IMG/VR virus record: IMGVR_UViG_3300025324_000012
Span: 1 to 61,718 of that record
Length of the DNA: 61,718 bases
Source of the DNA: a virus
Strand: one strand, 5' to 3'
Numbering within the stretch: position 1 is the first letter of the stretch; every line of letters starts with the position of its first letter. Both the position numbers and the translations under genes were made by a program. The notes below the pieces were generated by a model. It saw nothing but the letters and a program-made list of their open reading frames with translations, made no database searches and was not told the origin of the DNA. Shown piece by piece: positions 8,001 to 61,718 of this stretch.

Positions 8001-8182
8001 AGGCTCTCCCTTATAAGCAGAGCGAGTTCTTTAGCTAGCGCTTCCGTGCTAAAGGTGGTTGTGCTCTGAAAAGTGATTTTAGCTCCATCAGGGAGTCTTA
8101 CGTCCATTTCAATCACGTAAATGTTGTCACCTTTGCGGTAGTAAGATGCCACCGCAGAAATGATCGTTTTCGGTTTAGTCAT
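7997..8182 (-). CDS. Small hypothetical protein (61 aa)
   Basis: Encodes MTKPKTIISAVASYYRKGDN and a short beta-rich domain with amphipathic C-terminal helix. The start at 8182 is chosen because GAAGG precedes it. The frame is open up to 8287, but only a TTG or a siteless ATG (8254) is available there. It is the first gene after the 8.2-9.0 kb control region, so its message would carry the structured leader at 8313-8445. Confidence 0.6.
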   Translation of the reverse strand: MTKPKTIISAVASYYRKGDNIYVIEMDVRLPDGAKITFQSTTTFSTEALAKELALLIRESL

Positions 8183-8312
8183 TTTGCCTTCTTTTGTTTG
8201 ATAACTCAATGCGCCCACTACTTTCACAGTTTCACTACTTTCTAAGGTAGTCATACTTGTGTGGTTTTCGTATGTGGGCGGATTCAATTATCAAATTAGT
8301 CAGTATAAATCA

Positions 8313-8445
8313 AACCTGCAACCACTTGGAGACCTGACTCTTTTCGATGGGCAAGCTGGTGAGTCCAGTTGCAACTGGCTTCCGAGGCCTCTACCATCAT
8401 AAAGAACTACAATCCAAGAGTCAGATCTCCAAGTCGTTCCAGGTT
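8313..8445 (-). ncRNA. Structured element A: long-stem leader or RNA
   Basis: Two arms (8325-8342 and 8416-8433) pair over 18 positions with one mismatch. The stem continues outward with AACCTG (8313-8318) and CAGGTT (8440-8445). Inside are GATGG/CCATC (8346-8350 with 8394-8398), the palindrome CCAGTTGCAACTGG (8365-8378) and GAGGCCTC (8384-8391). This gives a multi-branch fold on either strand. It lies downstream of the minus-strand promoter at 8581-8610 and upstream of the gene ending at 7997, so a 5' leader is likely. There is no U-tract after the stem. Confidence 0.5.
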
Positions 8446-8580
8446 ATCCCCCTTGTCTCAGGAGAATTTCATTCGGGGCAATTCCATCCGAAATCTGGCT
8501 TCATTCCATCCCATAGCTTGCCTGATTCCGGCCAAAGAATTGTTCTAAACTGTTCATTTTCTTCAACTAAGCGCGAACCT

Positions 8581-8610
8581 ATCCTAACATGGGGATAGGG
8601 ACCTTGTCAA
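8581..8610 (-). promoter_or_regulatory. Leftward promoter TTGACA-N18-TAGGAT
   Basis: On the minus strand TTGACA (8610-8605) is followed after 18 bases by TAGGAT (8586-8581). This is a near-consensus sigma70-type promoter that would start transcription near 8574, toward element A and the leftward genes. Two further TTGACA boxes lie upstream at 8639-8644 and 8691-8696, but with poorer -10 matches. Confidence 0.55.
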
Positions 8611-8628
8611 TATGTAAGATTTACATAG

Positions 8629-8643
8629 TGACAATTTGTGTCA
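8629..8643. promoter_or_regulatory. Operator-like inverted repeat TGACA-N5-TGTCA, copy 1
   Basis: A perfect 5-bp inverted repeat with a 5-bp spacer. One half site is part of a minus-strand TTGACA box (8639-8644), so a bound protein would block a -35 element. The second copy is 52 bp away, about five helical turns, which would place both on the same DNA face. Confidence 0.5.
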
Positions 8644-8680
8644 ATATATGATAAATGGTAGTTTCCCATAAATCATAGGC

Positions 8681-8695
8681 TGACATAAAGTGTCA
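8681..8695. promoter_or_regulatory. Operator-like inverted repeat TGACA-N5-TGTCA, copy 2
   Basis: Same inverted repeat and spacer length as the site at 8629-8643, again overlapping a minus-strand TTGACA box (8691-8696). The pair could bind a phage repressor or a replication initiator; no candidate regulator gene is obvious. Confidence 0.5.
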
Positions 8696-8730
8696 ATTGT
8701 TTTTCATATAGAGATAGCTGTAAGTTATTG

Positions 8731-8791
8731 ATAATAATATACATATAATATATATATATAATAATATATATATAAATATATATATATAAAA
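8731..8791. other. A/T-only block, possible DNA unwinding element
   Basis: Sixty-one bases contain only A and T apart from one C (8742), with runs of alternating TA. Together with the flanking repeated sites this is what a duplex-opening element of a replication origin looks like. No initiator gene has been identified. Confidence 0.5.
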
Positions 8792-8925
8792 CACTTAACT
8801 CATCCGAACATTAAGGGTTAGTACTACTAACTCGGTACTAGAGGGTAAACAGGGAAAAGTTACCATGTACATTTTACCATTTCCTAGCCTGCCCATACCC
8901 TTACTCCCCTACCTTTCCCCTAACC

Positions 8926-12793: not shown

Positions 12794-13217
12794 CATGGAA
12801 ATTGGTAATGTGCCTTTGGGACTGAATAAAAGTTACTACCATTGCTGGGATTATGATGAAAAAGAAAAACTTATAATTCCTTATACGGAAGATACCCCTC
12901 TTATTTATAGGGGTTGGAATGTTTTTTGGACTGGTTGGAAGTCTACTCATTTAAGCACGCGTCAAGCTGGTCAATGGTTAGCTTGGCCACCGGTGGAATT
13001 ATATAAGAGTGGATTTAGGAAGCAGTATGTTTCCTGTGTTCCTGGAGAATGCAGAGAATATAGTAAAGGGGAAGAATTTGATATTATCCCCGAAGGGGAG
13101 CAAATTCCCATTGCTGGAGAAACTTCCCAAAAGGACGCAGGGGTAATGGTGGAAAAGGGTTTAGAACGGCTTAAGAAATTGCTTGATACTGTTCCTGTTT
13201 GTGGGGAAATAAAATGA
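12780..13217 (+). CDS. Hypothetical protein, paralogue of the terminase-interrupting gene (145 aa)
   Basis: Residues about 43-71 align without gaps with residues about 32-60 of the product of 15249-15656. Both read Y(K/R)GxxxxW(S/T)G(F/W), then SxxxxGxWLAxxP, with about 10 identities in 29. The rest has a Cys pair (SCVPGEC) and an acidic region. No known domain is recognised. It overlaps the zinc-ribbon gene upstream and the small-terminase candidate downstream (ATGA). Confidence 0.7.
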   Translation: MSANNMEIGNVPLGLNKSYYHCWDYDEKEKLIIPYTEDTPLIYRGWNVFWTGWKSTHLSTRQAGQWLAWPPVELYKSGFRKQYVSCVPGECREYSKGEEFDIIPEGEQIPIAGETSQKDAGVMVEKGLERLKKLLDTVPVCGEIK

Positions 13218-13780
13218 GCACAGCAATTCAAGAATATGACTTCATGGAGAAGATACGCCGAGAAGGTTTTGGCGACAGATTTTTCGATTTTATTTCCAAC
13301 AGGTCGGAAAAGCGCTTTAAGCTTCTTCTAACTGCGCTGAAGGATAAGCAGTATAAGTCAGTTCCTCTTCCTAGTTTATGTAAAGCAAGTGGTATTGACA
13401 TGACCGAGTTAGAGCGGTCATGGATTGACTTTAATAGGCAGCGTGGACTAGTCCGTATGGCCTCTCAATTACCTGACGTAATGGACGACGTTGCCGTCGA
13501 CGCAAGATCCGTCGTCGTTAAATGCAGAAATTGTGACGGTTTGGGACGGCTAGAGAATCAGCCTGAATTTCCTGAATGCCCAATTTGTGACGGAAGTGGA
13601 AAAGTACGTCGAATTGGCGATAAACATTCGAGGGAATTGCTGTTTGATACTATGAAATTGACCAGCAAGGAACCGCTGGTAAATATTAATAACAATTTCT
13701 CGTTAGAGTCAATCGTTGGTGATGCAAGTAAAATCCTTCGCAGCAATAGCGAAGTGATTGACATACAACCTGAGCCCTAA
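13214..13780 (+). CDS. terS: Putative terminase small subunit with DnaJ-type zinc motif (188 aa)
   Basis: The start at 13214 is chosen for its ATGA overlap with the upstream stop. An N-terminal helical region includes a plausible helix-turn-helix (LPSLCKASGIDMTELERSW). Then VMDDVAVDA leads into a zinc module with CRNCDGLG and CPICDGSG, the CxxCxGxG pattern of DnaJ. The C-terminal part (ELLFDTMKLTSKEPLVNI) resembles small proteins that precede terminase in environmental phages. Position just before the large-subunit genes supports TerS. Sequence alone does not prove DNA binding at a pac site. Confidence 0.6.
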   Translation: MSTAIQEYDFMEKIRREGFGDRFFDFISNRSEKRFKLLLTALKDKQYKSVPLPSLCKASGIDMTELERSWIDFNRQRGLVRMASQLPDVMDDVAVDARSVVVKCRNCDGLGRLENQPEFPECPICDGSGKVRRIGDKHSRELLFDTMKLTSKEPLVNINNNFSLESIVGDASKILRSNSEVIDIQPEP

Positions 13781-13814: not shown

Positions 13815-14042
13815 ATGACCTTCAAGTTCTTTCGTCTAAGAGGAATTGAACGTGAACTCGCTAAATTGAATGCTAATTTAGAGCTAATTATGATTCACTC
13901 TCTAGGTATAACACCACACTCGACGAAGAAGGTCACTTCGTTGGACGTTGAGGAAACGACAGTAGAATACTTAGACGAAGGTGACGATTTCGAGCGAGAA
14001 ATTAAAGAAAAGTTAGGTCGGGTCAAAGAAACGGTCGAATAA
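13815..14042 (+). CDS. Small acidic helical protein (75 aa)
   Basis: Starts MTFKFFRLRGIERELAKLN; the N-terminus is a basic helix and the C-terminus is strongly acidic (YLDEGDDFEREIKEKLG), likely a coiled coil. It lies 1 bp before the terminase ATPase gene. It may be a packaging accessory; the family is unknown. Confidence 0.65.
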   Translation: MTFKFFRLRGIERELAKLNANLELIMIHSLGITPHSTKKVTSLDVEETTVEYLDEGDDFEREIKEKLGRVKETVE

Positions 14043-14043
14043 G

Positions 14044-15249
14044 ATGTATTCTGATCTTGTTTCATACAAACAAATTGAGAAGTTAGAGGCAGCCTCGGGC
14101 ATAAAGCTTGCCCGAACTGACTTTAAGCAAGTAGCTGAGTGGAAATCTCGTCTTGGTGAAGTTAAGCGTGACCTCACGACCGAAGAACAGTTCTTCGTTC
14201 GCAACGAGACCTTAGTTTCGATGCTCGATTTTAACTATTGGGCACCTCGTTATTGCTACATTGACTATGATGGCTCTGAGGGTGGTGGAATTGGACCCTT
14301 GAAGCTATGGGATAGTCAAATAGTAATGATGAATATTGTTGCCCGCGCCGAGGAGCGAGCTTTTGAGGCATTTAATCGTCAGGAACCAACCGATGGAGTG
14401 CGAGTAATAGACCATAAAGCGCGGCAATTGGGTGGGACTGCCATAGCCCGCGCAATGACGACTCATCGTCTTACCCTCCACAAAGACATACGTGCTATGT
14501 CAGCATCCGTTGATGAAGATAAGATCAAAGAACTTTACGATCGTGATAAGATCATCTACGACAACCTCCCTTGGTGGCTAAAGCCTTCCCTCGATAAGAA
14601 AGAGGGTGGATATGATGTTAAAGCACAGCATATTCACTTTGAGGGGCTTCATTCCCGAATCCTTTACCAGCACTCGCAACAGAAAACAGGAATGGGTGTA
14701 GGTCGTCATTGGGACATTGCCCACCTCACCGAATGCAGCGCCTGGAAAGCTCCTGAAATGGATATTGAGTTAAATTTCTTTCCAGGACTTTCTCAATACT
14801 GGATGACGTTGTGTATCCTAGAATCCACTGCGCTGGGCAGGGGAAATTGGTGGCATGACTTCACTGAACGCGTCCGTAGGGGTAAGATTCCTGGTTGGTC
14901 TTACTGTTTTGTCCCTTGGTATGCAGAGGGGAAGAAGTATCGCAGACAGCCTCCTAAAGATTGGGTTCCAGATCCTCTATCTCTAGAACATGCTAAGCGT
15001 GTTTATGCCACGTCAATGGAGTTCGTTGGCAAGCAGGTTAGTCTCCCCTGGGAGCAACTTTATTGGTATGAGACTACTCGTAGGCAGTATCTTGAAGGAA
15101 ATAAGCTAAACCATTTCCTTACTTCTTATGCGTCAACTCCTGAGGAATCATTCCAGCATACTACTCAAAGTGGATTCAGTACTCAAATACTTGAATGGGC
15201 TGATCTTCATACTAAGATGGGGCAGCCTTTTGAATTGGAGGTTGCTTAA
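14044..15249 (+). CDS. terL-N: Terminase large subunit, ATPase half (401 aa)
   Basis: Contains the ATP-binding motif HKARQLGGTAIAR (about residues 124-136), a classic terminase Walker A variant. Walker B and catalytic carboxylate lie in DIAHLTECSAW (224-234), where Thr replaces the usual Asp before Glu230. The coupling motif is LESTALGRGNWW (259-270). Together these form the DNA translocation motor. The gene stops after the linker (QTTQSGFSTQILEW region) that normally leads into the nuclease domain. That domain is encoded separately at 15656-16480, with an unrelated gene between. The junction is TAATG-coupled. Confidence 0.9.
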   Translation: MYSDLVSYKQIEKLEAASGIKLARTDFKQVAEWKSRLGEVKRDLTTEEQFFVRNETLVSMLDFNYWAPRYCYIDYDGSEGGGIGPLKLWDSQIVMMNIVARAEERAFEAFNRQEPTDGVRVIDHKARQLGGTAIARAMTTHRLTLHKDIRAMSASVDEDKIKELYDRDKIIYDNLPWWLKPSLDKKEGGYDVKAQHIHFEGLHSRILYQHSQQKTGMGVGRHWDIAHLTECSAWKAPEMDIELNFFPGLSQYWMTLCILESTALGRGNWWHDFTERVRRGKIPGWSYCFVPWYAEGKKYRRQPPKDWVPDPLSLEHAKRVYATSMEFVGKQVSLPWEQLYWYETTRRQYLEGNKLNHFLTSYASTPEESFQHTTQSGFSTQILEWADLHTKMGQPFELEVA

Positions 15250-15656
15250 TGTTACGACGTGGATTTTTGTCAGCTTTGGTTGCACCTGCTGTTTTGGCAG
15301 CAAAATCAATACCAGGTAAAGAAGATTCCGACGAATTTTTGTATAAAGGCCTCAAGATCACCTGGTCCGGCTTTTTACCTTCACAGTATAGCGTAGAATT
15401 GGTTGGTTATTGGTTAGCGCTGCGTCCTGATGGATATGGTCTGTATGCTACTACAGGTGGTTTTGGTCAGTTTTATACTCCTTACATGACTATGGATTTA
15501 CGTGTAAGCCATAATTTTCCTAGAGTGACAGCGCAGTCAAGCAATTTAGATAAGCAACAATGTAAAATGCGAGCACGTAATAATATTATTAAAATGTGCA
15601 ATAACCCAGAGGATTTTGAAGGCTCAGACAAGTGGTCTGCTGAGGAAATTGAGTAG
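15249..15656 (+). CDS. Terminase-interrupting protein with Tat-like leader (135 aa)
   Basis: The product begins MLRRGFLSALVAPAVLAA, which looks like a twin-arginine or Sec export signal with an Ala-rich h-region. The body contains a YKGLKITWSG...GYWLALRP segment shared with the product of 12780-13217. There are no endonuclease motifs (HNH, LAGLIDADG, GIY-YIG). It is embedded between the two terminase-half genes with TAATG upstream and TAGTG downstream, so it is co-translated with them. The role is unknown; the hydrophobic start could also be an internal strand rather than a signal. Confidence 0.7.
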   Translation: MLRRGFLSALVAPAVLAAKSIPGKEDSDEFLYKGLKITWSGFLPSQYSVELVGYWLALRPDGYGLYATTGGFGQFYTPYMTMDLRVSHNFPRVTAQSSNLDKQQCKMRARNNIIKMCNNPEDFEGSDKWSAEEIE

Positions 15657-16480
15657 TGAGCAACGTCCAACCATACACGATTGGTTCTCAAGTTTTAGTA
15701 CCTAATTTGAGCCCACAGAATTACGACCAAGATCCGAGAGGATATATCTGGTTGTGGGAGAAACCAATCCATACAGCAACATACGTGATGGCCATTGACC
15801 CGTCAGTTGGACGTACAGGTTGGTGCCGTGCTACACGAACAGAAGACGATTATCGTACAGATAATGGTGCTATTTTCATCATGCGCTGTGGTGTAAATGG
15901 GTTACCTGACACACAAGTAGCTGAATATGCTGGTCCTGTTGATGCAGAAGAAATTGGCACTATTGCCAACGCATTAGGGCGTCTATACGCGGGCAAAGAG
16001 GAAATGGCAATCTGCATCATTGAAATGTATCCCGGTCCTGGCCTTTTAACATATAGGCGAATGATGGATCTAGGATATACCAACCACTTTGTATGGAAAT
16101 ACCTCGACAACGCAGGTGGAGCATTAAAATTCGGTTTCTGGCCAGGGAGGGAATCTAATAAGTACCTCTGGATTAGAGCCTCTCGTCACTTTCATAATAA
16201 GGGACTTGTAGTTAAATCCCCCTGGCTTGTTGAGGAAATGCGTAATTGTGAAGTAGATCCAGTTAAGATGTGGGGCCGCGCCGTATATGGCACGCATGAT
16301 GACCGGGTGCGTGCCATGATGATGGCGTTGTGGGCAGCACATGACTGGTCAATGCAGGTAGATACAGCTACGCCCGTAGTTACAGAGGGTAAAGTAGTAG
16401 ATTGGCAACGCTCAGACATTACTGCTGAACAACTAGCAGATGCCTGGGAGGAAAGATTCTTAGAACTTCAAGAGGCTTAA
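15656..16480 (+). CDS. terL-C: Terminase large subunit, nuclease half (274 aa)
   Basis: An RNase H-fold nuclease domain: YVMAIDPSVG with Asp48, CIIEMYPGPG with Glu123, and THDDRVRAMMMALWAA with Asp215/Asp216. These are the metal-binding residues of terminase headful nucleases. The first 40 residues (DPRGYIWLWEKPIHT) match the linker that normally follows the ATPase domain. The start is GTG, overlapping the previous stop (TAGTG). It must associate with the ATPase half to cut DNA in packaging. Confidence 0.88.
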   Translation: MSNVQPYTIGSQVLVPNLSPQNYDQDPRGYIWLWEKPIHTATYVMAIDPSVGRTGWCRATRTEDDYRTDNGAIFIMRCGVNGLPDTQVAEYAGPVDAEEIGTIANALGRLYAGKEEMAICIIEMYPGPGLLTYRRMMDLGYTNHFVWKYLDNAGGALKFGFWPGRESNKYLWIRASRHFHNKGLVVKSPWLVEEMRNCEVDPVKMWGRAVYGTHDDRVRAMMMALWAAHDWSMQVDTATPVVTEGKVVDWQRSDITAEQLADAWEERFLELQEA

Positions 16481-17299: not shown

Positions 17300-18613
17300 A
17301 TGTCAACTTTAGCCGACATTCTTGCTCAGATCAAGTGGTATGGGAAAAGGGGTATCCCTGATCCTGGGCAGGGCTTTGATGATTCACACCCTGTAATTAC
17401 GAACATCCTTGATAAACTTGTGCCGATAACAAAACCAATGGTTGATGCTGGTTCATTGGCGCGAGAAATAGCTCCTAGAATGGTGAGCTCCGGCCCTATT
17501 CAGAGCTTGCCTCCACAAATGCAGGACACTGCTAAGAAAGTAGCAACTGCCACAATTGAGGGGTTTGGGGATTTTGTAGGAGAAAGTTCTTCCCCATTAA
17601 ATATAGCTTCTTTATTGGCTGGAGGTGCTGGTGGATTTGCCAAAGGTGGTTTTGGTAAAGCCTTTACAGCAGCATTAAATGCTGGTTTCATTCCCCCAGC
17701 AGTAACAATGATGGAGTCTGGTGATCCCTCTGGGACGGCTTTTGCGGTTTTGCCCCTTGCAGTATTACTAAAGAATCCTGGGCTTGCCCAAAAATACCCC
17801 GAGCAGGCATATAAATCTATAGCTCAAACCATGAATGAATTACCACCCTTCATAACAAGGGAGACTTTAAGGGATTCCTTGAATTTTCCAGGGGGGTATG
17901 GTTTAAAGTATGAAGGTCTTGCTAATGATTTTTCCTCTGCTCTAAATCAAGGTCTTGAAACCCCAATAGGTCGTGCTTTGTGGGGACTAAGATTGTATAT
18001 TCATGGTGGTCCAGGCTTAAATGCGATTAAAATAGAATCCAAAAATTATATAGCTGGGGGAGTTATTAGCCCTTCAAATAATTATGCATCCTGGCAAGCT
18101 TTATATGGAATTTCAGAAAATCAAATACTTTCTATCCCAGGTAATAGAACTTCTGAATTAGCTGCGGCGGTAGTAGATTCTATAAGGGCCGCAAAACCCG
18201 AAAAAATTAAGTTGTATCGGGGTTTATCAGAACCATTTAGTTATCGCCCACATATGGAATATGAAAAACTTAAAGATGCTAAAATTGGAGATATTATAAG
18301 TATTGGGGATGTAAGTTCATTTAGCACTAGTCAATCAGTGTCTAGAGATTTTCAATACGTAGGTGGGGTTTTGTTAGAAACTAGAGGACCTATAAAGAGG
18401 TTAAATGTGTCTCCTTTAAGTCATTATAGAGAAGGAGAATCTTTGAGTTTTGGTAATTTCAGGATTGTTAAGGTGGCAGATGAAATAATTTCAGGTTTGG
18501 AATCCCAGAAAAAAAGTCAAAGTCTTTTACTACAAACGCTGGGATACAAACGCTATTCTTCTGGCAAATCTGAAAAAGGCACAAGGATTATAATTGAGGC
18601 AATTCAGCAATGA
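17300..18613 (+). CDS. Putative ADP-ribosyltransferase, virion-associated (437 aa)
   Basis: The C-terminal third fits the R-S-E class of mono-ADP-ribosyltransferases. IKLYRGLS supplies Arg307, SSFSTS (339-344) is the STS motif, and REGESLSFGNFRIVKV supplies the ExE pair Glu378/Glu380. Residues 95-165 form glycine/alanine-rich hydrophobic segments (NIASLLAGGAGG, AFTAALNAGFIPP) that could cross or insert in a membrane. Its position next to the portal gene suggests it is packaged and injected, as known for Alt of phage T4. Target and activity are unknown. The AT-rich, rare-codon 3' half differs from its neighbours. Confidence 0.7.
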   Translation: MSTLADILAQIKWYGKRGIPDPGQGFDDSHPVITNILDKLVPITKPMVDAGSLAREIAPRMVSSGPIQSLPPQMQDTAKKVATATIEGFGDFVGESSSPLNIASLLAGGAGGFAKGGFGKAFTAALNAGFIPPAVTMMESGDPSGTAFAVLPLAVLLKNPGLAQKYPEQAYKSIAQTMNELPPFITRETLRDSLNFPGGYGLKYEGLANDFSSALNQGLETPIGRALWGLRLYIHGGPGLNAIKIESKNYIAGGVISPSNNYASWQALYGISENQILSIPGNRTSELAAAVVDSIRAAKPEKIKLYRGLSEPFSYRPHMEYEKLKDAKIGDIISIGDVSSFSTSQSVSRDFQYVGGVLLETRGPIKRLNVSPLSHYREGESLSFGNFRIVKVADEIISGLESQKKSQSLLLQTLGYKRYSSGKSEKGTRIIIEAIQQ

Positions 18614-18711
18614 AAAATTTGGTAGATATTGCTAAGATCAAAATCATAAACATAACAGGACTAAAATCTGTTAAAGAAATAGAATTGCTTCAGAAAACTA
18701 AGAAGAAATGA
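18610..18711 (+). CDS. Very short basic peptide bridging to the portal (33 aa)
   Basis: Encodes MKNLVDIAKIKIINITG and a Lys-rich tail. It overlaps the ADP-ribosyltransferase stop and the portal start, both by ATGA. It may only relay ribosomes to the portal gene, or could be a small partner of the ADP-ribosyltransferase. Confidence 0.45.
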   Translation: MKNLVDIAKIKIINITGLKSVKEIELLQKTKKK

Positions 18712-20657
18712 CAATCCCAGATCAAGCAGCCCCAGGTAGCGTCTTAGGATGGTGTAAGGAAGCCGTCCAGGAGGGGCAGTCCTTTAATAAGTCTCAAAGA
18801 GGCTATTCTAAAGGTGCGGATTGTATTGACGCCATAATGGGGGATAAGTCAGACTTCCGGTCAACTACCCTTTCAAGTACCACTGCAAATCATTTAGCCA
18901 AGACCGCCGAGGATCTTACGGCGTATTTAACAGACATTAGGCCATTCTGGGAATATACTACCCGAAACAAGCGTTACGCGCAGAATGCCGATAATTATGG
19001 TAAGCTCTCCCTCCACTGGTGGTTGTGTGGGGGATCAGCCCATAAGGGCGCGGATATTGCTTTCACTGACGTAATTAAGTACGCTTTAGCCTGTGGAACT
19101 GGTTGGGCACATCAAACGTACTCTGATCGTTGGGGAGATATCATCCTTGAATCCGAAGACCCGCGCGACGTTTTACCCGTGCGGCCCTCCTCATATGATA
19201 CGATTCAGGATGCCCTTGGCGTTGCGGTGCGAAGGGAAAGAACAGTAAATTACGTTCGTGGGTTAAAGATGTTTGAGGGGCGGGAAAACCTAATCCAAGC
19301 CACACGGGATGGGGCTGTGCGGGATTCAATGGAGAATACTCGCGCAGGTAAGCTGATGGAGTGGTTGGGTTCTCCCTTTAGGGATAGACTATTCTCTAAT
19401 CGTGCTGCACGTGAGATTCATCGTATTCCAACACTTGACCTTACAACGCTTTACGTAGATGATCGAACGCGCTGGGAAGGTAGTACGCCACGCTATATGG
19501 GTGAGTGGCACGTCAGTCCTAAACCAGACTGCAAGGAGTGCGAAGTTAAAGGACCACACCCTTTAACGAACTGGTCTTATAAAGTAGAGAAAGGCGAGTT
19601 ACTATATCCTAATAAGAGGATGATTGTCTTCACCGACCAGTTGGTTGGTTATGATGGCCCTTCTCCATACTGGCATGGGCTATTTCCACTCTCTAAACTG
19701 ACGCTTATTCCTTATCCCTGGTCTTGGTTGGGCAAGGGCGCTCTCTGGGATCTTCTACCCTTACAAAGAGCACTGGATAAACTTTTAAGGGTGTGCGACG
19801 ATCACTTTGAGAAAATAGCTAGACCTGACGTAGTTGCTGATAAGAATAGCATTAGCGAAGCATTCCTTAAGAAGATTGATACCCGTAAAGCGGGAGGGAA
19901 GTTCAGGATTAATGCACTGGCAGGTAAGGGTTTCGACATTAAATATCCTAATCCTTTGCCGGCAGAAGTTACGCAAGCTATCCAGTTCTACATTCAAGAA
20001 ATGTCTACCCTATCTGGGGTTCAAGACATGTCCAGCTTGATGAAGTTAAAACAACTTCCTGAGGCTGATACTGTAGAAGCAATTATGAACTCTATGACGG
20101 GAGCGACGCGTTTAAGATCACGCGTTATAGAATCATTCATGCGTGAATTCGCTCAGATGTTAGCATTTAACTTCACGCAATTCTATACCTTACCTATGCG
20201 TTTAGCTATGCTAGGTGAGGCTGGAATGACTTTTGAAGATTTCGACTTCGATCCTGGTTCTATCCTACCTGATTTCGTTCATGCTTCTGATATAGACCCA
20301 ATTACTGGCGCGCCGACTACTGAAGCCGCACAACGTGGCCCGCGCCCAAGGGCTGATCGGGCTAAAGAATTTCTTCAGAATTTCAGCTACAATATCACTT
20401 CTTCGTCCCTTCTGGCTAGCAGTGAAGTAACACGCCAAATGAAGTATTTACAATTGGCACGCGCTGGATGGATGGATATTTGGACGTTATTTGAAGTACT
20501 GGACATTCCTAACGGTGGAGAACCTCCTGTTGGAGCCAAGACCATTCCAGAGAGACTTGCTGCACAGAACGAAATGGGTCTTGGAATGAATGTTAATCCT
20601 GCTGGACGTAAAGCCTCTGGGCAAAGTCCGCCCCGTGCAGTAGTAAAGGAGAGCTAA
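18708..20657 (+). CDS. Portal protein (649 aa)
   Basis: Length and layout match podovirus portals. Features are an N-terminal helical wing (TANHLAKTAEDLTAYLTDIRPFW), a central YGKLSLHWWLCGG segment, ADP-like stem helices near LMKLKQLPEADTVEAIMN, and a C-terminal crown (ERLAAQNEMGLGMNVNPAG). An internal Cys/His group (PDCKECEVKGPH) could bind zinc. It forms the dodecameric DNA gate at the capsid vertex. It is coupled upstream to the 33-residue peptide (ATGA) and downstream to 20657 (TAATG). Confidence 0.85.
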   Translation: MTIPDQAAPGSVLGWCKEAVQEGQSFNKSQRGYSKGADCIDAIMGDKSDFRSTTLSSTTANHLAKTAEDLTAYLTDIRPFWEYTTRNKRYAQNADNYGKLSLHWWLCGGSAHKGADIAFTDVIKYALACGTGWAHQTYSDRWGDIILESEDPRDVLPVRPSSYDTIQDALGVAVRRERTVNYVRGLKMFEGRENLIQATRDGAVRDSMENTRAGKLMEWLGSPFRDRLFSNRAAREIHRIPTLDLTTLYVDDRTRWEGSTPRYMGEWHVSPKPDCKECEVKGPHPLTNWSYKVEKGELLYPNKRMIVFTDQLVGYDGPSPYWHGLFPLSKLTLIPYPWSWLGKGALWDLLPLQRALDKLLRVCDDHFEKIARPDVVADKNSISEAFLKKIDTRKAGGKFRINALAGKGFDIKYPNPLPAEVTQAIQFYIQEMSTLSGVQDMSSLMKLKQLPEADTVEAIMNSMTGATRLRSRVIESFMREFAQMLAFNFTQFYTLPMRLAMLGEAGMTFEDFDFDPGSILPDFVHASDIDPITGAPTTEAAQRGPRPRADRAKEFLQNFSYNITSSSLLASSEVTRQMKYLQLARAGWMDIWTLFEVLDIPNGGEPPVGAKTIPERLAAQNEMGLGMNVNPAGRKASGQSPPRAVVKES

Positions 20658-26839: not shown

Positions 26840-27958
26840 ATGGCAGAACTCAATCAGATTGACGTTTCTACAAAACGTTATATTCGCAATACGCCAAAAC
26901 TGGTGGATATGATTTTCCAGCAGGGCGTACTTGCGTCTTACGCTAAGCAAAATGTTCGTGAAGACTACGATGGTGGGCGATTTATCCAGGAGAACTTCTG
27001 GTACGGTGCATCCGTTGGGGGCTTCTACAACAAGGGGAAGGAATTCAACATCACTGAAAAGCAGCTGGAACAAGGCTGTCAATTCTTGCCCAAATTCCTT
27101 GAAGTGAATATCACGCTTGCCAAAGAAGATATTCAAGTAATCAACAAGGGACCGAATGCTGCTTTTAAGCTCATTGAGAGCCGCACGCAGAATGCTTACA
27201 TCACAGCAGGTGCGTTTCTCGAACTTGCTATGTATCTCAATGGCCAACGTGCTGGATTTACTCCAATGTTCAATGGTCTTGCGGAAGCCCTGAATGACAA
27301 TACGACCGTATCATGGGATAACAATCTTTATGCCACCTATGGTACTATCACTCGCGGTGGTACTACAGGAACAGCACTGAATAGTGTTCCTACTAACGTT
27401 GGTGGAACACTTCTCTATCCGACGTTGGAAGAAACCTATGGTCGGGCGTATTTTGGGCCTGACCCGTTTGAACCTAATCTTGGTGTGACGACTGTAATTG
27501 GCGCGTCTATCATCAAGAATAAGTTCCAAACCCAACAGCGTTTTAATGATACGCAAGTAATGGTTGCTGGCTTCAACTTCCGTGGTATGAAGTTCAACGG
27601 AGCCACTATTGTTGCTTCTCGTTACTGCCCTGGCTCTTACCTGTTCGGTTCTAGTGGTACTGCAGATCCTACGGCAGTATCATTTATGACTGAAGTTTCA
27701 GATGGAGCGCTAGTGGCATATCCTGCCCCTGTTGGTGGTTATCCAGCTGCTGGAACCAATTGGGAGACGCTGTTCTGGATCAATGCTCGCAAACCGTTTA
27801 TGAACTTCTACGTGTCCGACGACCCAGAATATGGTTTTGGGTTCACCGGATTTAAGCCCGCTCAGGGCAATACCAAGGTTGCTGGTCAGGTATTGTATTC
27901 TGGTGCAACAACTTTTGCACCTCGCTACCACCAACAGCTGTACAACATTACTGGTTAA
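26840..27958 (+). CDS. Major capsid protein (372 aa)
   Basis: The sequence begins MAELNQIDVSTKRYIRNTPKL and contains FIQENFWYGASVGGFYNKG, a pattern seen in major capsid proteins of short-tailed phages. Length of 372, a mixed alpha/beta composition with a C-terminal beta-rich P-domain-like part and position behind the scaffold fit the HK97-type fold. GAAAGGACAAC gives a good ribosome site. Confidence 0.85.
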   Translation: MAELNQIDVSTKRYIRNTPKLVDMIFQQGVLASYAKQNVREDYDGGRFIQENFWYGASVGGFYNKGKEFNITEKQLEQGCQFLPKFLEVNITLAKEDIQVINKGPNAAFKLIESRTQNAYITAGAFLELAMYLNGQRAGFTPMFNGLAEALNDNTTVSWDNNLYATYGTITRGGTTGTALNSVPTNVGGTLLYPTLEETYGRAYFGPDPFEPNLGVTTVIGASIIKNKFQTQQRFNDTQVMVAGFNFRGMKFNGATIVASRYCPGSYLFGSSGTADPTAVSFMTEVSDGALVAYPAPVGGYPAAGTNWETLFWINARKPFMNFYVSDDPEYGFGFTGFKPAQGNTKVAGQVLYSGATTFAPRYHQQLYNITG

Positions 27959-33412: not shown

Positions 33413-36400
33413 AGCAGAAAAATACGATCGGGATCTTCAGCGTTTCTTGTGTCTTGGCCTTGACCTTAATAGGCCTGTAGACGCAGTACGTCCAGGTAGA
33501 TTTCCATTCCTGAAGAATCTGCGCTCTTATCAGGGCGAGCGCATTGATCCTCGCCCTGGACTTACCAAACTTGGAACTAATGGAATAGTAATTTCTGGTG
33601 CTACCCCAGTCCATTCAATGCGTCGGTTAAATGATCCACTCGCGGCAGACCATACACGTATTATTGGAACTGGGCAAGCGCTAGCTTATGGTAAAGTAGA
33701 TCCATTTACGCAAGTAACATATGCAGGTGGGAATGCTGGATTCTCTGGTAATCCCCTTGCGCTAGTTCAGTACCGCCCAGAAGCATCTCCAAGATCGTGG
33801 ATGTACATTGGAGATTCCGCGCCGACTGTTGGGGCGGGGGTAGCTGCTGGTACTTTAGCTACTACGTTGAAGAAGATTCGTATTAGCGGAGAGATGCATC
33901 AGTTTGGTTTGCCTACTCCAGTTTTGCCCACTCCGAACTTGTGGGAGACTGCGGTAGTATTAAGTGTTCCCTCGTATAAGTACACTGACCCTGACCTAGA
34001 TTTTGAGTATGCTAATAATGCGGCACTGCAGGCTGATTGGATTGGTGTTTATGTTCCAACTGGTGCTTCTGTACTTCCTATTTTAGTAGCTCCAGCAAGA
34101 GTTGCTACAACTATCCAAGCGGCTGCGGGTACTCCTGATGGTATTCTATTTGATGTTGGTACTACTGGATGGGCATGTGTTAGACCTGCATCAACTGCAC
34201 AAATGGGACGGGGTGTAATTCTTCGTATTAATTCGGGCGGTGGGACTGATGAACGGACTATAATTCAAGAGATACACCCAGTTTCTACAGCTACTACAAT
34301 AGGTTCCATTATTTATGATACTGGAACAACTGGTTTATGCTCAATTGTTTTGACTACTCCAGTTGAACAAGTTGATGTAAATGCAATGCTGTTGAACTCT
34401 ACCTTAGTAACAGGACCAACAACAGGTCAATATTCTAGGATATTATCAGTTAATCGGGGCTCGGACGGAACTGTATCTCTTAGATGTTCAACAGTTGGGA
34501 CTTGGGTAGCAGGGCATTCTGTTCAGCTTGTTGCTTCCTTTCGTGCATATTTTGCCAATAATCATGTTGGTGGGGAAGCAATTGGAGCCAATGCCGCTAC
34601 ATTCTCCTGCGCTGTAGGAACAACCACCTTAACAAGAACAGCAGCATTTGACTTCTCAATTATAGAAACTGGAGTTCCAGTAGGACCTGATGATTACATA
34701 CACATCTCACTTCGCGCTGATGTTCCATCTAGCATTTCTGAGGGTAAGATATTATTCGACGTGGATCTTACGACTAATGACTTCACGCGTAATTTTTACT
34801 ATAAGGCGTTTAGGTCTAACGATCTCACGCCGTCTGCGCGAAACTTGCAGACATTGGTGACTACCGGCCCTACCGTTGTAGCAAGAGAGATTATTGATAC
34901 GTCATTAACTCAGGATGAATTTGCTCCTATAACTCTCTCACCTTATCAGGATATAGTAGAGACTCCTGTTGATACTACAGATTCTACCAGCCAGCAATTA
35001 GATTTGGGTGACGTGCAGTGGACGGAATTGGTATTCAAAGTTTCTGATTTGATTAGGGTTGGAACTGACTTTACACGTACACTAGCTAACATCGCGTCAA
35101 TACGACTTCTATTGACGACGACTGCAACAGTAAACTTAGCAATTGATGACATTTGGATTGGTGGAGGTTATGGTCCTGATGTGGTCGAGCCTACCGGGTC
35201 ACCATACATATATCGCTATCGGGCGCGTTCTAGCCAATCAGGCGCTAGAAGTAATGCATCGCCTCCATTTCGCGGCGGCGTATCGCCACGTCGCCAACGT
35301 GTAAGCATTACGCCCCCCGCATACGCATTAGCCCCAGCATCGGAAGCGGACGTGTTAGATATTGAACGTTTGGGCGGGGAAATCCCAACGTGGCATTATA
35401 TTGGTACAGTGCCTAATGATGGTACAACGGCATGGATAGATAAAATGTCAGATGATATTGTTGCAGGATTGCCGAATCTCGGAGATGCATCATTTCAACC
35501 CTGGCTAACCATTGGGCTACCTGCTACGGGTAACACAACAGCAGTATCTGGAACTACTGTTAATGGAACTGGATTCAATACTGCTTGGGCACAAGGGACT
35601 GTATTACAAGTTAATGGAATTGCCTGCAACCTTTACCGGGTCATTTCTACTACGCGCTTGGAGGTTTATCAAAATCTAGGCACTATGACTGTGGTGCCGT
35701 GGGTGGTAGCTGAACCACAATTAGTAAGTCAACCACTTCCGTGCTTATGGATGTCGGAGGAGGATAATGTCTGGATGGGGTGTGGTGATCTTACTAATCC
35801 TGGTAGATTATACTGGTGTCAGCCAGGAACAGAGGGCATGAAAGAGAGAAATTGGAAGGATATTACTTCCCCTTCTGAACCACTGATGAATGGTGTCCAT
35901 TATAATGGTAGGGATTATGTATGGTCAACCGAGAGAATGTTTCAATTACTCTCACGTCGTCTATCAGATGGGTCATTCACTTATGAAGCTCAGGAAATTC
36001 CTAATGGTAAAGGATTGTTTGCACGGTGGGCAATTACTTTAATTCCAGGCTCCGAGATTCAGTATTTAGCCAAAGATGGAATCTACACTACTGGAGGTGG
36101 AAGTCCTCGTTCACTAACGGATGAGTGGTTATACCCACTATTTCCTAAGGAGACACAAGCGGGAACTGCGACTAATGGTGTTCGTGCCCCGAACATTTCG
36201 GCAACTAACCAAGAGAGATTGAGATTAAATTTCTGCGCTGGATTTCTTTATTTTGACTATCTTGACGCCTCTAACAACCCTGGAACTTTATTATATGTAC
36301 CAGAATCTGATGGTTGGTTCTACGACGTGTTTAGTACAGCAGCCGTATTCCATTATGGGGACGAAGGTCAGAATGTAAGAGCCATCTTCGTTGGGGATGC

Positions 36401-37130
36401 TTCTGGCGGGACTGGCAAAGTATACCAACTTACCGGAAATAGTGACGATGGAACTGCTATTGCTTGTGAAGGTTTAACTCCAAGTAGAGATCAAGGTGAT
36501 GCGCGACTAAACAAGTATTATGGCGACATAATGATTGATTCTGATTGCAATGGAGTTTCTGTTACTTGGACTCCAGGAATCAACAATAATTCTAGCACTT
36601 TCACCCCTAAAGTGCTAAGTCATACGGGACGAGATCAAATTGCAGTTCCCCTTGGAACAACTTGGAAGACAGGTAGGAATATCTCTGCACGTTTCTCATT
36701 TAGTATAAGTACAGCAAATAAGCCATTACTTTACATCTGGGAACCACGATGGACATTTGAAAGTGCTCCCATTAAGGCTATTGCTTGGGAGATTTCTCCT
36801 TCAACGTTGGGAATGGAGAACTTCAAACACTTTGGTATGGTTCGTATTACACGTATATCCTCAGTGGCTACTCCGCTGGTGGTAACGGTTGATGGGGTAG
36901 TCCAAGCTGCAGTGAATATCCCATCTAGTGGTGGAATATATGCTACTTACGTATTCAGACTTCCCGTCTATAAAGGTAAACTATTTCAATTACGTATAGC
37001 TCCCACAGATAATCTAACTGAGTGGAGACTAGATGGTAGAGATAGTTACCTTGAGGTTAAGCAGTGGGGAAGTGATGGACCCTATCATAAGATGCGTATG
37101 TTTAGTGACTTCAGTATGATTGAGGGCTAA
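33405..37130 (+). CDS. Tail hub/nozzle (P22 gp10/T7 gp12-like), 1241 aa
   Basis: The N-terminal PFLKNLRSYQGERIDPRPGLTKL is typical of tail stabilisation/nozzle proteins of short-tailed phages. The protein is almost entirely beta, with repeated SYKYTDPDLDFEYANNAALQ and VEPTGSPYIYRYRARS segments, consistent with a propeller-type hub. At 1241 residues it is longer than known T7 or P22 nozzles; the middle insertion may hold an extra sugar-binding or galectin-like domain. The ATG overlaps the adaptor stop. Confidence 0.8.
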   Translation: MPEAEKYDRDLQRFLCLGLDLNRPVDAVRPGRFPFLKNLRSYQGERIDPRPGLTKLGTNGIVISGATPVHSMRRLNDPLAADHTRIIGTGQALAYGKVDPFTQVTYAGGNAGFSGNPLALVQYRPEASPRSWMYIGDSAPTVGAGVAAGTLATTLKKIRISGEMHQFGLPTPVLPTPNLWETAVVLSVPSYKYTDPDLDFEYANNAALQADWIGVYVPTGASVLPILVAPARVATTIQAAAGTPDGILFDVGTTGWACVRPASTAQMGRGVILRINSGGGTDERTIIQEIHPVSTATTIGSIIYDTGTTGLCSIVLTTPVEQVDVNAMLLNSTLVTGPTTGQYSRILSVNRGSDGTVSLRCSTVGTWVAGHSVQLVASFRAYFANNHVGGEAIGANAATFSCAVGTTTLTRTAAFDFSIIETGVPVGPDDYIHISLRADVPSSISEGKILFDVDLTTNDFTRNFYYKAFRSNDLTPSARNLQTLVTTGPTVVAREIIDTSLTQDEFAPITLSPYQDIVETPVDTTDSTSQQLDLGDVQWTELVFKVSDLIRVGTDFTRTLANIASIRLLLTTTATVNLAIDDIWIGGGYGPDVVEPTGSPYIYRYRARSSQSGARSNASPPFRGGVSPRRQRVSITPPAYALAPASEADVLDIERLGGEIPTWHYIGTVPNDGTTAWIDKMSDDIVAGLPNLGDASFQPWLTIGLPATGNTTAVSGTTVNGTGFNTAWAQGTVLQVNGIACNLYRVISTTRLEVYQNLGTMTVVPWVVAEPQLVSQPLPCLWMSEEDNVWMGCGDLTNPGRLYWCQPGTEGMKERNWKDITSPSEPLMNGVHYNGRDYVWSTERMFQLLSRRLSDGSFTYEAQEIPNGKGLFARWAITLIPGSEIQYLAKDGIYTTGGGSPRSLTDEWLYPLFPKETQAGTATNGVRAPNISATNQERLRLNFCAGFLYFDYLDASNNPGTLLYVPESDGWFYDVFSTAAVFHYGDEGQNVRAIFVGDASGGTGKVYQLTGNSDDGTAIACEGLTPSRDQGDARLNKYYGDIMIDSDCNGVSVTWTPGINNNSSTFTPKVLSHTGRDQIAVPLGTTWKTGRNISARFSFSISTANKPLLYIWEPRWTFESAPIKAIAWEISPSTLGMENFKHFGMVRITRISSVATPLVVTVDGVVQAAVNIPSSGGIYATYVFRLPVYKGKLFQLRIAPTDNLTEWRLDGRDSYLEVKQWGSDGPYHKMRMFSDFSMIEG

Positions 37131-38263
37131 TGGGACAATATAGACCATCCTTCAATGATCTAACTAGCCTCGACAAGAAAAAAGTAGACGTCGAGCAGCT
37201 AGAGCGCGTCTTTAGAATAGTATTCGACCGTCTATATGAAACTCCCACAAGCATTGAGCAGGCAATCTTAGAAGCTGAGAAGAAACTTCCTTCTCTAATT
37301 AGAGAAAATGCTGAAGTTATCCAACGAAGTCTTCAGGCTGATGGTAATGCGCCACTTAATCTAACTTCGCTTCCAGGTATTCCTGCGCAGGTAAGTCAGA
37401 TTATACAGGATACTCATGCTAATCGAATAGCTCTTTACCCAGCAGCTAACTACCCCAATACAGTTTTCTGGGAAACTGATAGATTAGTTCTGTATGTATC
37501 TGAAGCTGGAACGTGGAAGTACGTTTCTGGAGTTAACGTTAATACTTTTTCTAATCGTCCAGCTGATCTAGGGACAGGTGATGTAGGATTTCAGTTCTAT
37601 GCATCAGATTTTACTGTTGGTTGGAGATGGAGTGGCACCGCATTTGAGTATAGATATGGAATTTATGAAAGAACTCAAGCTCAACTAGCTGCGTTGGCTG
37701 CGTTGCTGGCCGCAAGTGATGTTGGATTTCTCGTGGATGTTACAGATTATGAGCACATACTAAAGTGGACTGGTACAGCTTGGAGTTTTCAGGCTGGTGA
37801 TGGTTCTGGTCATGTCGTGATGGGTAAGCCAGATGGTTCTGCACCTAATGGTGGTGTGTGGGGATTATGTGATGGGACGGCTTATACTGTACTTAATGGT
37901 GTTGGAACTACTAGTAACTTAACTACACAGAATCTAACCGGTGAGGTGTTCCTAAAGGGTGCAACTGCTGTTGCTGGACAGCAGGCAGCAGTACGAGCAA
38001 CTTGGGAAGTAGCTGCAATTACAGACAACGCCAGTGCAGGTACTCCAGCAGGATCTATTGGAAACAACGATTCAAGCGTGGCAGTGCAATCTGGAGCGGG
38101 CACAACAGTAGCGGCTGACCCACACTCCCACTCATTCACAGGTAGTGCAATGGGAAATCATCAGCATGCATTAAGTGATGCCAATGCACAACTAAAGGTT
38201 CCAAGTGAAGCAAATGGTGGTTTACCGCTACGGATAAGTACAGTTTGGTATATAAGGAGATAG
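37130..38263 (+). CDS. Tail fibre/collar-domain protein (377 aa)
   Basis: An N-terminal helical region (residues 1-90) connects to fibre-like modules (WETDRLVLYVSEAGTWKYVSG; IYERTQAQLAALAALLAASDV). The C-terminal 100 residues carry HSHSF and HQHAL, the His motifs of collar-type fibre tips that bind metal. TAATG couples it to the tail hub. It is probably a receptor-binding fibre. Confidence 0.75.
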   Translation: MGQYRPSFNDLTSLDKKKVDVEQLERVFRIVFDRLYETPTSIEQAILEAEKKLPSLIRENAEVIQRSLQADGNAPLNLTSLPGIPAQVSQIIQDTHANRIALYPAANYPNTVFWETDRLVLYVSEAGTWKYVSGVNVNTFSNRPADLGTGDVGFQFYASDFTVGWRWSGTAFEYRYGIYERTQAQLAALAALLAASDVGFLVDVTDYEHILKWTGTAWSFQAGDGSGHVVMGKPDGSAPNGGVWGLCDGTAYTVLNGVGTTSNLTTQNLTGEVFLKGATAVAGQQAAVRATWEVAAITDNASAGTPAGSIGNNDSSVAVQSGAGTTVAADPHSHSFTGSAMGNHQHALSDANAQLKVPSEANGGLPLRISTVWYIRR

Positions 38264-61200: not shown

Positions 61201-61718
61201 TGTTTTTCTCCCACTCATTTAGGGCTGTGCTTAGGGCCAATAACTCTGACGTGGGAGGACTTTTCCTATTTCCCGCCAAATACAGCCCTAGTTCGTCTTT
61301 CAAATCCGTCGCCGCAAGGAAAAGTCTTCCCATCCGTCGCCGCAAGTTAGCGTAATACTGGTCGATAATCGGCTTGGTCCCGTCGTATAGTGGAACTTTG
61401 CCGGATGACTTCTGTTCGTTACTAATTGCACCTTCCACAGCCTTCGGGGCGTGCTTGGCTGCGTCAATCGCTTTTTGAAGATCAGACTGAAGCATGGCCA
61501 CAGCGGTTTCCAGAACCATTTCCGGCGCACCGAGCAGACATTCGGACCACTCGTCAGGGTGTTTCAAGTGTCTCTCCGCAGCCTCAATCCACTCTGGCAC
61601 CGCAGGCGGGGGAGGTTGGAGGCAGGGAATAAACTCTTTGATGATTCGCTCAGATTCCAGTGGGCCAGCATTCATAAACAACTCCTCGCAGACGTTATGC
61701 TGTCCCTCCACCCTCCCC
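61187..61718 (-). CDS. Hypothetical protein, C-terminal part (continues at window start)
   Basis: Carboxy-terminal 144 codons (61187-61619) of the 253-residue protein that begins at 329; the segment 61620-61718 duplicates 1-99. Helical and charged (LQKAIDAAKHAPKAVEGAIS; LRRRMGRLFLAATDLKDELG). The stop overlaps the next start by 14 bases. Unknown family. Confidence 0.75.
   Translation of the reverse strand, partial: GRVEGQHNVCEELFMNAGPLESERIIKEFIPCLQPPPPAVPEWIEAAERHLKHPDEWSECLLGAPEMVLETAVAMLQSDLQKAIDAAKHAPKAVEGAISNEQKSSGKVPLYDGTKPIIDQYYANLRRRMGRLFLAATDLKDELGLYLAGNRKSPPTSELLALSTALNEWEKNNVKS
61620..61718. repeat. Terminal direct repeat, right copy
   Basis: Exact copy of bases 1-99; removing one copy closes the genome at 61,619 bp. 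Confidence 0.95.

Follow-up and report, generated by a model that had tools for sequence, protein, structure and literature searches.

The large terminase (TerL) is normally one protein made up of a motor half and a cutting half. In the virus studied here, these halves lie in separate genes with a third gene between them. Is the packaging enzyme of this virus built from two polypeptides, and does the gene between the halves take part in it? The window, i.e., the whole stretch of DNA that was analyzed, is an IMG/VR virus record of 61,718 bases, which looks like a complete genome because it carries an exact 99-bp repeat at both ends (1 to 99 and 61620 to 61718). Open reading frame (ORF) analysis of positions 14044 to 16480 resolved three genes in three different frames, encoding the ATPase, a 135-aa product, and the nuclease, with a 1-base stop/start overlap at each junction (TAATG and TAGTG). 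An initial, sequence-only reading of this region had given the same ORF positions, three-gene order, and overlapping junctions, all of which hold. The features discussed below are collected in Table 1.

TABLE 1 Coordinates of terminase-region features in the window and in a related record with dispersed halves (L204)
Record	Feature	Position	Strand	Basis or remark
Window	Paralogue of the 135-aa interrupter, 145 aa	12780..13217	+	BLASTP and shuffles
Window	Putative small terminase (TerS-like) gene, 193 aa, CxxCxGxG zinc motif	13199..13780	+	Position
Window	75-aa gene directly 5' of the ATPase gene	13815..14042	+	
Window	TerL ATPase (packaging motor) gene, 401 aa	14044..15249	+	Profile and fold
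Window	Lysine-first Walker A, KARQLGGT, residues 125-132	14416..14439	+	
Window	Walker B, IAHLTE, residues 225-230	14716..14733	+	
Window	135-aa interrupter, Tat-like N-terminus MLRRGFLSALVAPAVLAA	15249..15656	+	
Window	TerL RNase H-fold nuclease gene, 274 aa, GTG start	15656..16480	+	Profile and fold
Window	Catalytic Asp48	15797..15799	+	Invariant; aligned with LDCSEG of gp17
Window	Catalytic Glu123	16022..16024	+	Invariant; aligned with IELN of gp17
Window	Catalytic Asp215-Asp216	16298..16303	+	Invariant; aligned with HDD of gp17
Window	Portal gene, 3' of the packaging genes	18708..20657	+	phrog_156 portal protein, E 5e-8
L204 record	Nuclease	about 8012-8848	+	Leads the small-gene, portal, capsid series
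L204 record	ATPase	34950-36185	-	
L204 record	TerS-like gene	36609-37250	-	

The upstream gene encodes a gp17-type ASCE ATPase with Walker A and B motifs. A profile of 19 split ATPases matched T4 gp17 residues 107 to 311 (E 3e-11), and the predicted fold (pLDDT 91) had the T4 gp17 ATPase 2o0j as its best PDB match (Foldseek E 8.5e-13). Residues K125, R127, and Q128 of Walker A and H227 and E230 of Walker B are invariant across the split ATPases. The ATPase that the sequence-only reading recognized by a Walker A motif thus stands, albeit with a qualification about the motif itself: KARQLGGT aligns with SRQLGKTT of T4 gp17, but it lacks the canonical GK[ST] lysine and instead has its lysine at the beginning of the loop. 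Since the single-chain terminase of phage Tunturi_1 has a Walker A of the same lysine-first form, this peculiarity is not a consequence of the split.

The downstream gene encodes an RNase H-fold nuclease with a D/E/D triad. D48, E123, D215, and D216 do not vary among 20 split nucleases and align with the T4/RB49 gp17 motifs, in agreement with the earlier description of a complete nuclease with Asp48, Glu123, and Asp215. A profile of these 20 proteins matched the RB49 gp17 nuclease (E 1.5e-10) and T4 gp17 residues 386 to 559 (E 1.8e-6), and the best matches of the predicted fold (pLDDT 76) were the TerL nucleases of T4, RB49, and P22. Pfam found no domain in either window half, and in PHROGs only the ATPase had a TerL match, a weak one; the identification of the halves therefore draws on profiles, PHROGs, and folds. 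PDB searches with single sequences returned nothing for the halves, whereas alignment-based PDB searches did match. Identity to T4 gp17 is remote (about 16 to 20% in the fold matches). At the level of sequence and predicted structure, alignment to single-chain TerL shows that both halves are complete and conserved, with homology to successive stretches of gp17.

Viral contigs were scanned with both halves and with alignments built from them (five scans). A locus was kept if both domains could be mapped, and removal of near-duplicates left 107 loci, which form the rows of the tree described below. The two domains are encoded apart in 64 nonredundant loci, the window and 63 others, and on a single chain in 43, a set that includes distant outgroups. 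Because so many nonredundant loci carry it, the split is no artifact, and because the genes are separate, we file the window enzyme as a two-chain variant rather than as an ordinary TerL. PHROG TerL families matched both the split pair of one relative (L022) and single-chain relatives. Every split case is a metagenomic contig; searches of the phage collection yielded no split relative among the isolates listed, and a scan of genome contigs found no relative.

The terminase genes of the window lie between a TerS-like gene and a portal gene, an order kept in many loci. Homologues of the portal were found in 87 of the 106 related loci and homologues of the TerS-like gene in 60, and the latter adjoins the ATPase gene even where the ATPase gene has moved. 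We infer from gene position only that the 193-aa product is TerS. The 75-aa gene next to it has clear homologues in 2 of 106 loci (phmmer). Between nuclease and portal, positions 17300 to 18613 encode a 437-aa protein with a C-terminal part that looks ADP-ribosyltransferase-like by eye (LYRGL, FSTS, EGE); its PHROG match is at chance level (phrog_832, E 0.18), and a homologue was found in none of the 106 loci. The product of positions 26840 to 27958 had no PHROGs match and is probably the major capsid protein, judging by its relation to the Tunturi_1 major head protein.

Two genes can still yield one chain if their products are joined later, by intron splicing, frameshifting, ribosomal bypass, or a split intein, and inteins (Intein_splicing, LAGLIDADG_3) do occur inside the split ATPase genes of two relatives (L102:1413-3422 and L196:5271-7571). 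We consider such joining extremely improbable for the window. Its three genes occupy three frames, with a full-length gene in the middle; no Hint or intein motifs were found in its proteins, and their termini match no intein model. Rfam detected no intron in the 13- to 19-kb part of the window, and many relatives have no space for one. The 135-aa product has no Pfam domain, endonuclease motifs included, so that the earlier remark that neither an intron nor a homing endonuclease accounts for the split is upheld. Among the single-chain enzymes, L034 and L040 have unexplained inserts of about 250 aa, that of L034 without an intein match.

The L204 record (L252/L253; 63,022 bp, the ends being an exact 127-bp repeat) is the most extreme case of separation. 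Its ATPase and nuclease genes are on opposite strands with about 26 kb between them. Splicing and frameshifting are thereby excluded in that genome, although the dispersed arrangement comes from one assembly and a rearrangement artifact is possible. Together with the conservation of both intact halves across the clade, this dispersal supports the proposal, made from the window alone, of a two-subunit TerL. We conclude that the window enzyme is very probably a two-polypeptide large terminase.

The same proposal included a third partner, and the 135-aa product could be an obligatory third subunit or a bridge of the packaging enzyme. Its gene sits between the two halves and has a stop/start overlap with each, its few family members occur near terminase genes, and in one other locus (L116) a member also lies between the halves. 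However, in 33 of the 64 split loci, the nuclease profile match begins no more than 62 nt after the ATPase stop codon, and in some the two overlap, which leaves no room for any gene at the junction; in the remaining split loci, the gap ranges up to 3.5 kb. Gene content at the junction is mostly not the same from one locus to the next, and most of these genes are unrelated to the 135-aa product. The gap holds a 55-aa protein in L007 that is missing from the near relatives L005, L008, and L009, a 65-aa protein with a zinc motif in both L011 and L012, a protein weakly resembling phospholipase or DUF1353 in L020, and a further Tat-like protein in L025. In L006 it holds several genes, one of them with a weak radical SAM match, and relatives of the L002 interrupter lie 3' of the nuclease in L007 and L009. 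The closest tree relative of the window, L176, has no 135-aa gene between its domains, and the Tat-like N-terminus suggests export rather than a part in a motor. A third subunit is therefore quite improbable.

The family of the interrupter is small. It comprises the window paralogue and members in L116, between the halves, in L177, just upstream of the ATPase, in L005, upstream, and in L017, downstream, positions that vary in a way that also tells against a third partner. The interrupter and its paralogue align over 40 residues (BLASTP E 4e-6 for a single comparison), with a score reached by none of 300 shuffles. The interrupter had no match in the phage collection, and pattern scans of viral contigs returned no relatives of it or of its paralogue. 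Major capsid proteins came up as homologues through an iterated profile; we treated these matches as profile drift via a short motif like Y.xP..GxYxxGxxFDI and rejected them. On the evidence of gene content and position, the 135-aa gene is a mobile accessory gene and not part of the packaging enzyme. We propose that the slot opened after the halves had separated and that the gene between them is a passenger.

By a crude pattern, small proteins with a Tat-like RRxFL N-terminus number 0.027 per kb in the terminase region and 0.010 per kb elsewhere in the loci, and 17 of 18 are in split genomes. Examples lie at position 15249 in the window and at L177 2881, L017 12031, L116 2335, L025 3718, and L243 8896, among others.

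How old is the split? A quick concatenated tree of the 107 rows, rooted on the outgroups, contains 30 weak forks. L176 is the closest relative of the window on this tree (pairing SH-aLRT 93, the only support measure) and has a syntenic, single-chain TerL of 667 aa. Its neighboring small genes and portal are similar to those of the window, including a 74-aa gene with a similar start at the place of the 75-aa gene. A single-chain closest relative is what one would expect if the TerL of the window lineage had recently been broken by an insertion, leaving halves that are decaying or complementing each other by chance. We regard such a break as highly improbable. Nearly all other rows around the window are split, which makes re-fusion in L176 the cheaper reading of the pairing. 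All catalytic residues are kept in both window halves, and the nuclease begins at a start codon of its own and shares an N-terminal segment (PYTIG...) with other split nucleases.

Single-chain rows are nested in split groups at several places (L176/window, L189/L196, L119/L117, L164/L165, L018/L162, and a group of 21). The fewest changes between split and fused states on the tree are 8, and by parsimony 7 of these are forced by the starred branches; an earlier bootstrapped tree of 44 rows gave the same picture with 3 changes. In histories sampled under a reversible two-state model, the halves split once or twice and were re-fused six to nine times. Both the count of changes and their direction depend on a tree with weak forks, on rooting by the outgroups, and on a simple model with two states.

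An alternative hypothesis is that the same two-chain enzyme arose by repeated, independent splitting at the same linker, with no re-fusion. Linkers tolerate breaks, and the single-chain outgroups suggest that the fused state is ancestral. Yet parsimony requires 17 splits if splitting is irreversible, compared with 8 changes in all otherwise, and the Mk model without re-fusion fits 20.6 lnL units worse (-49.2 versus -28.6 for the reversible model). Single-chain members, moreover, contain both split-type termini. L119 has SSNFPAMFTVGASGRLIKMDPKEFDRDPRG where the nuclease of its split sister L117 begins MSNFPAALSVGNSGNIQRMDASEFDQDPRG, such that the entire N-terminus of the L117 nuclease is present, in line, in the fused protein. 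In L018, two termini are joined that resemble those lying apart in L033. We consider repeated splitting unlikely. A history of one or two splits and then about seven re-fusions gives a far better fit than one in which splitting is irreversible, with the direction of change inferred from the tree. The comparison of about 100 relatives thus suggests that the halves separated anciently and were rejoined several times. We postulate one or two old splits in the ancestry of the clade and then about seven independent re-fusions.

The correlation between ATPase and nuclease distances is r 0.89, whereas 1,000 permutations gave at most 0.18. This correlation is no stronger than that with the portal and thus indicates common descent only; coevolution of the halves beyond genome-wide descent was not shown (partial r 0.41 given the portal). 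Some halves may have been exchanged between phages. The L008 ATPase resembles that of L009 (84 to 95% DNA identity over most of the gene), whereas its nuclease in large part resembles that of L007, with a switch near the junction. Recombination could explain this discordance, as could chimeric assembly, since the loci come from one metagenome.

How might a two-chain terminase work? In its predicted fold, the ATPase subunit is like the N-terminal motor of gp17; on the gp17 model, it presumably forms a ring on the portal, and the nuclease, translated separately from the downstream gene, would make the cut. The nuclease, not being part of the motor chain, must bind noncovalently to the motor, to the DNA, or to the portal; physical association of the subunits, their stoichiometry, and the activity of the pair are presumed here from the genes. 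The break falls within the flexible linker between the two domains of a single-chain TerL, and hence no domain is damaged. Through the stop/start overlaps, which the window shares with many relatives, ribosomes could couple translation of the genes and keep the protein amounts matched; in the window, coupling through the interrupter is plausible. A broader hypothesis, which we advance tentatively and with some doubt, is that the motor is an ATPase-only translocating ring, that the nuclease can dissociate and is recruited only for the cut, that the link is dispensable and was repeatedly gained and lost, and that the halves are exchangeable. If true, the covalent link of other tailed phages is dispensable in this clade.

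The clade offers natural material for the question of whether the nuclease domain is part of translocation or serves only in cutting, and split relatives can be compared directly with matched fused ones. There are practical ramifications as well. With both halves lacking Pfam matches, the nuclease half is easily missed in annotation, and TerL-based phylogenies or completeness checks would score such genomes as missing half the enzyme. In the literature searched, from which subscription journals were mostly absent, we found no published split or two-gene TerL; as a clade-wide variant the two-chain TerL is apparently new, for which this absence is weak evidence.

The closest structural counterparts, T4 and RB49 gp17 (2o0j, 3cpe, and 3c6a), share the combination of an ATPase and an RNase H-fold nuclease with alignable catalytic acids, but gp17 is one chain with the canonical GKT Walker A lysine, whereas the window has two chains and the lysine-first form. 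The closest isolates among the matches listed are Tunturi_1 and Tunturi_2 (PP887698 and PP885685; ATPase 26% identity over 96% of the query), Tunturiibacter phages that are podoviruses of Acidobacteriota (PMC11924767). They have the same order of TerL, small gene, portal, and capsid gene, but their TerL is a single chain of 723 aa. The TerL of cyanophage Mic1 is interrupted by an intein (PMC7156551). Such enzymes, L102 and L196 here included, resemble that of the window in having an interrupted TerL coding sequence; they become one chain after splicing, whereas the window halves stay separate genes. A jumbo-phage review describes the RNase H-fold nuclease domain as universal in TerL across Caudovirales (PMC7824862). 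The deep clade described here keeps that domain, but as a separate protein. In phi29, translocation by the packaging motor gp16 is not known to rely on a working nuclease domain; unit-length genomes are packaged with a terminal protein, with no known need for a headful cut. Unlike phi29, the window phage keeps an intact nuclease.
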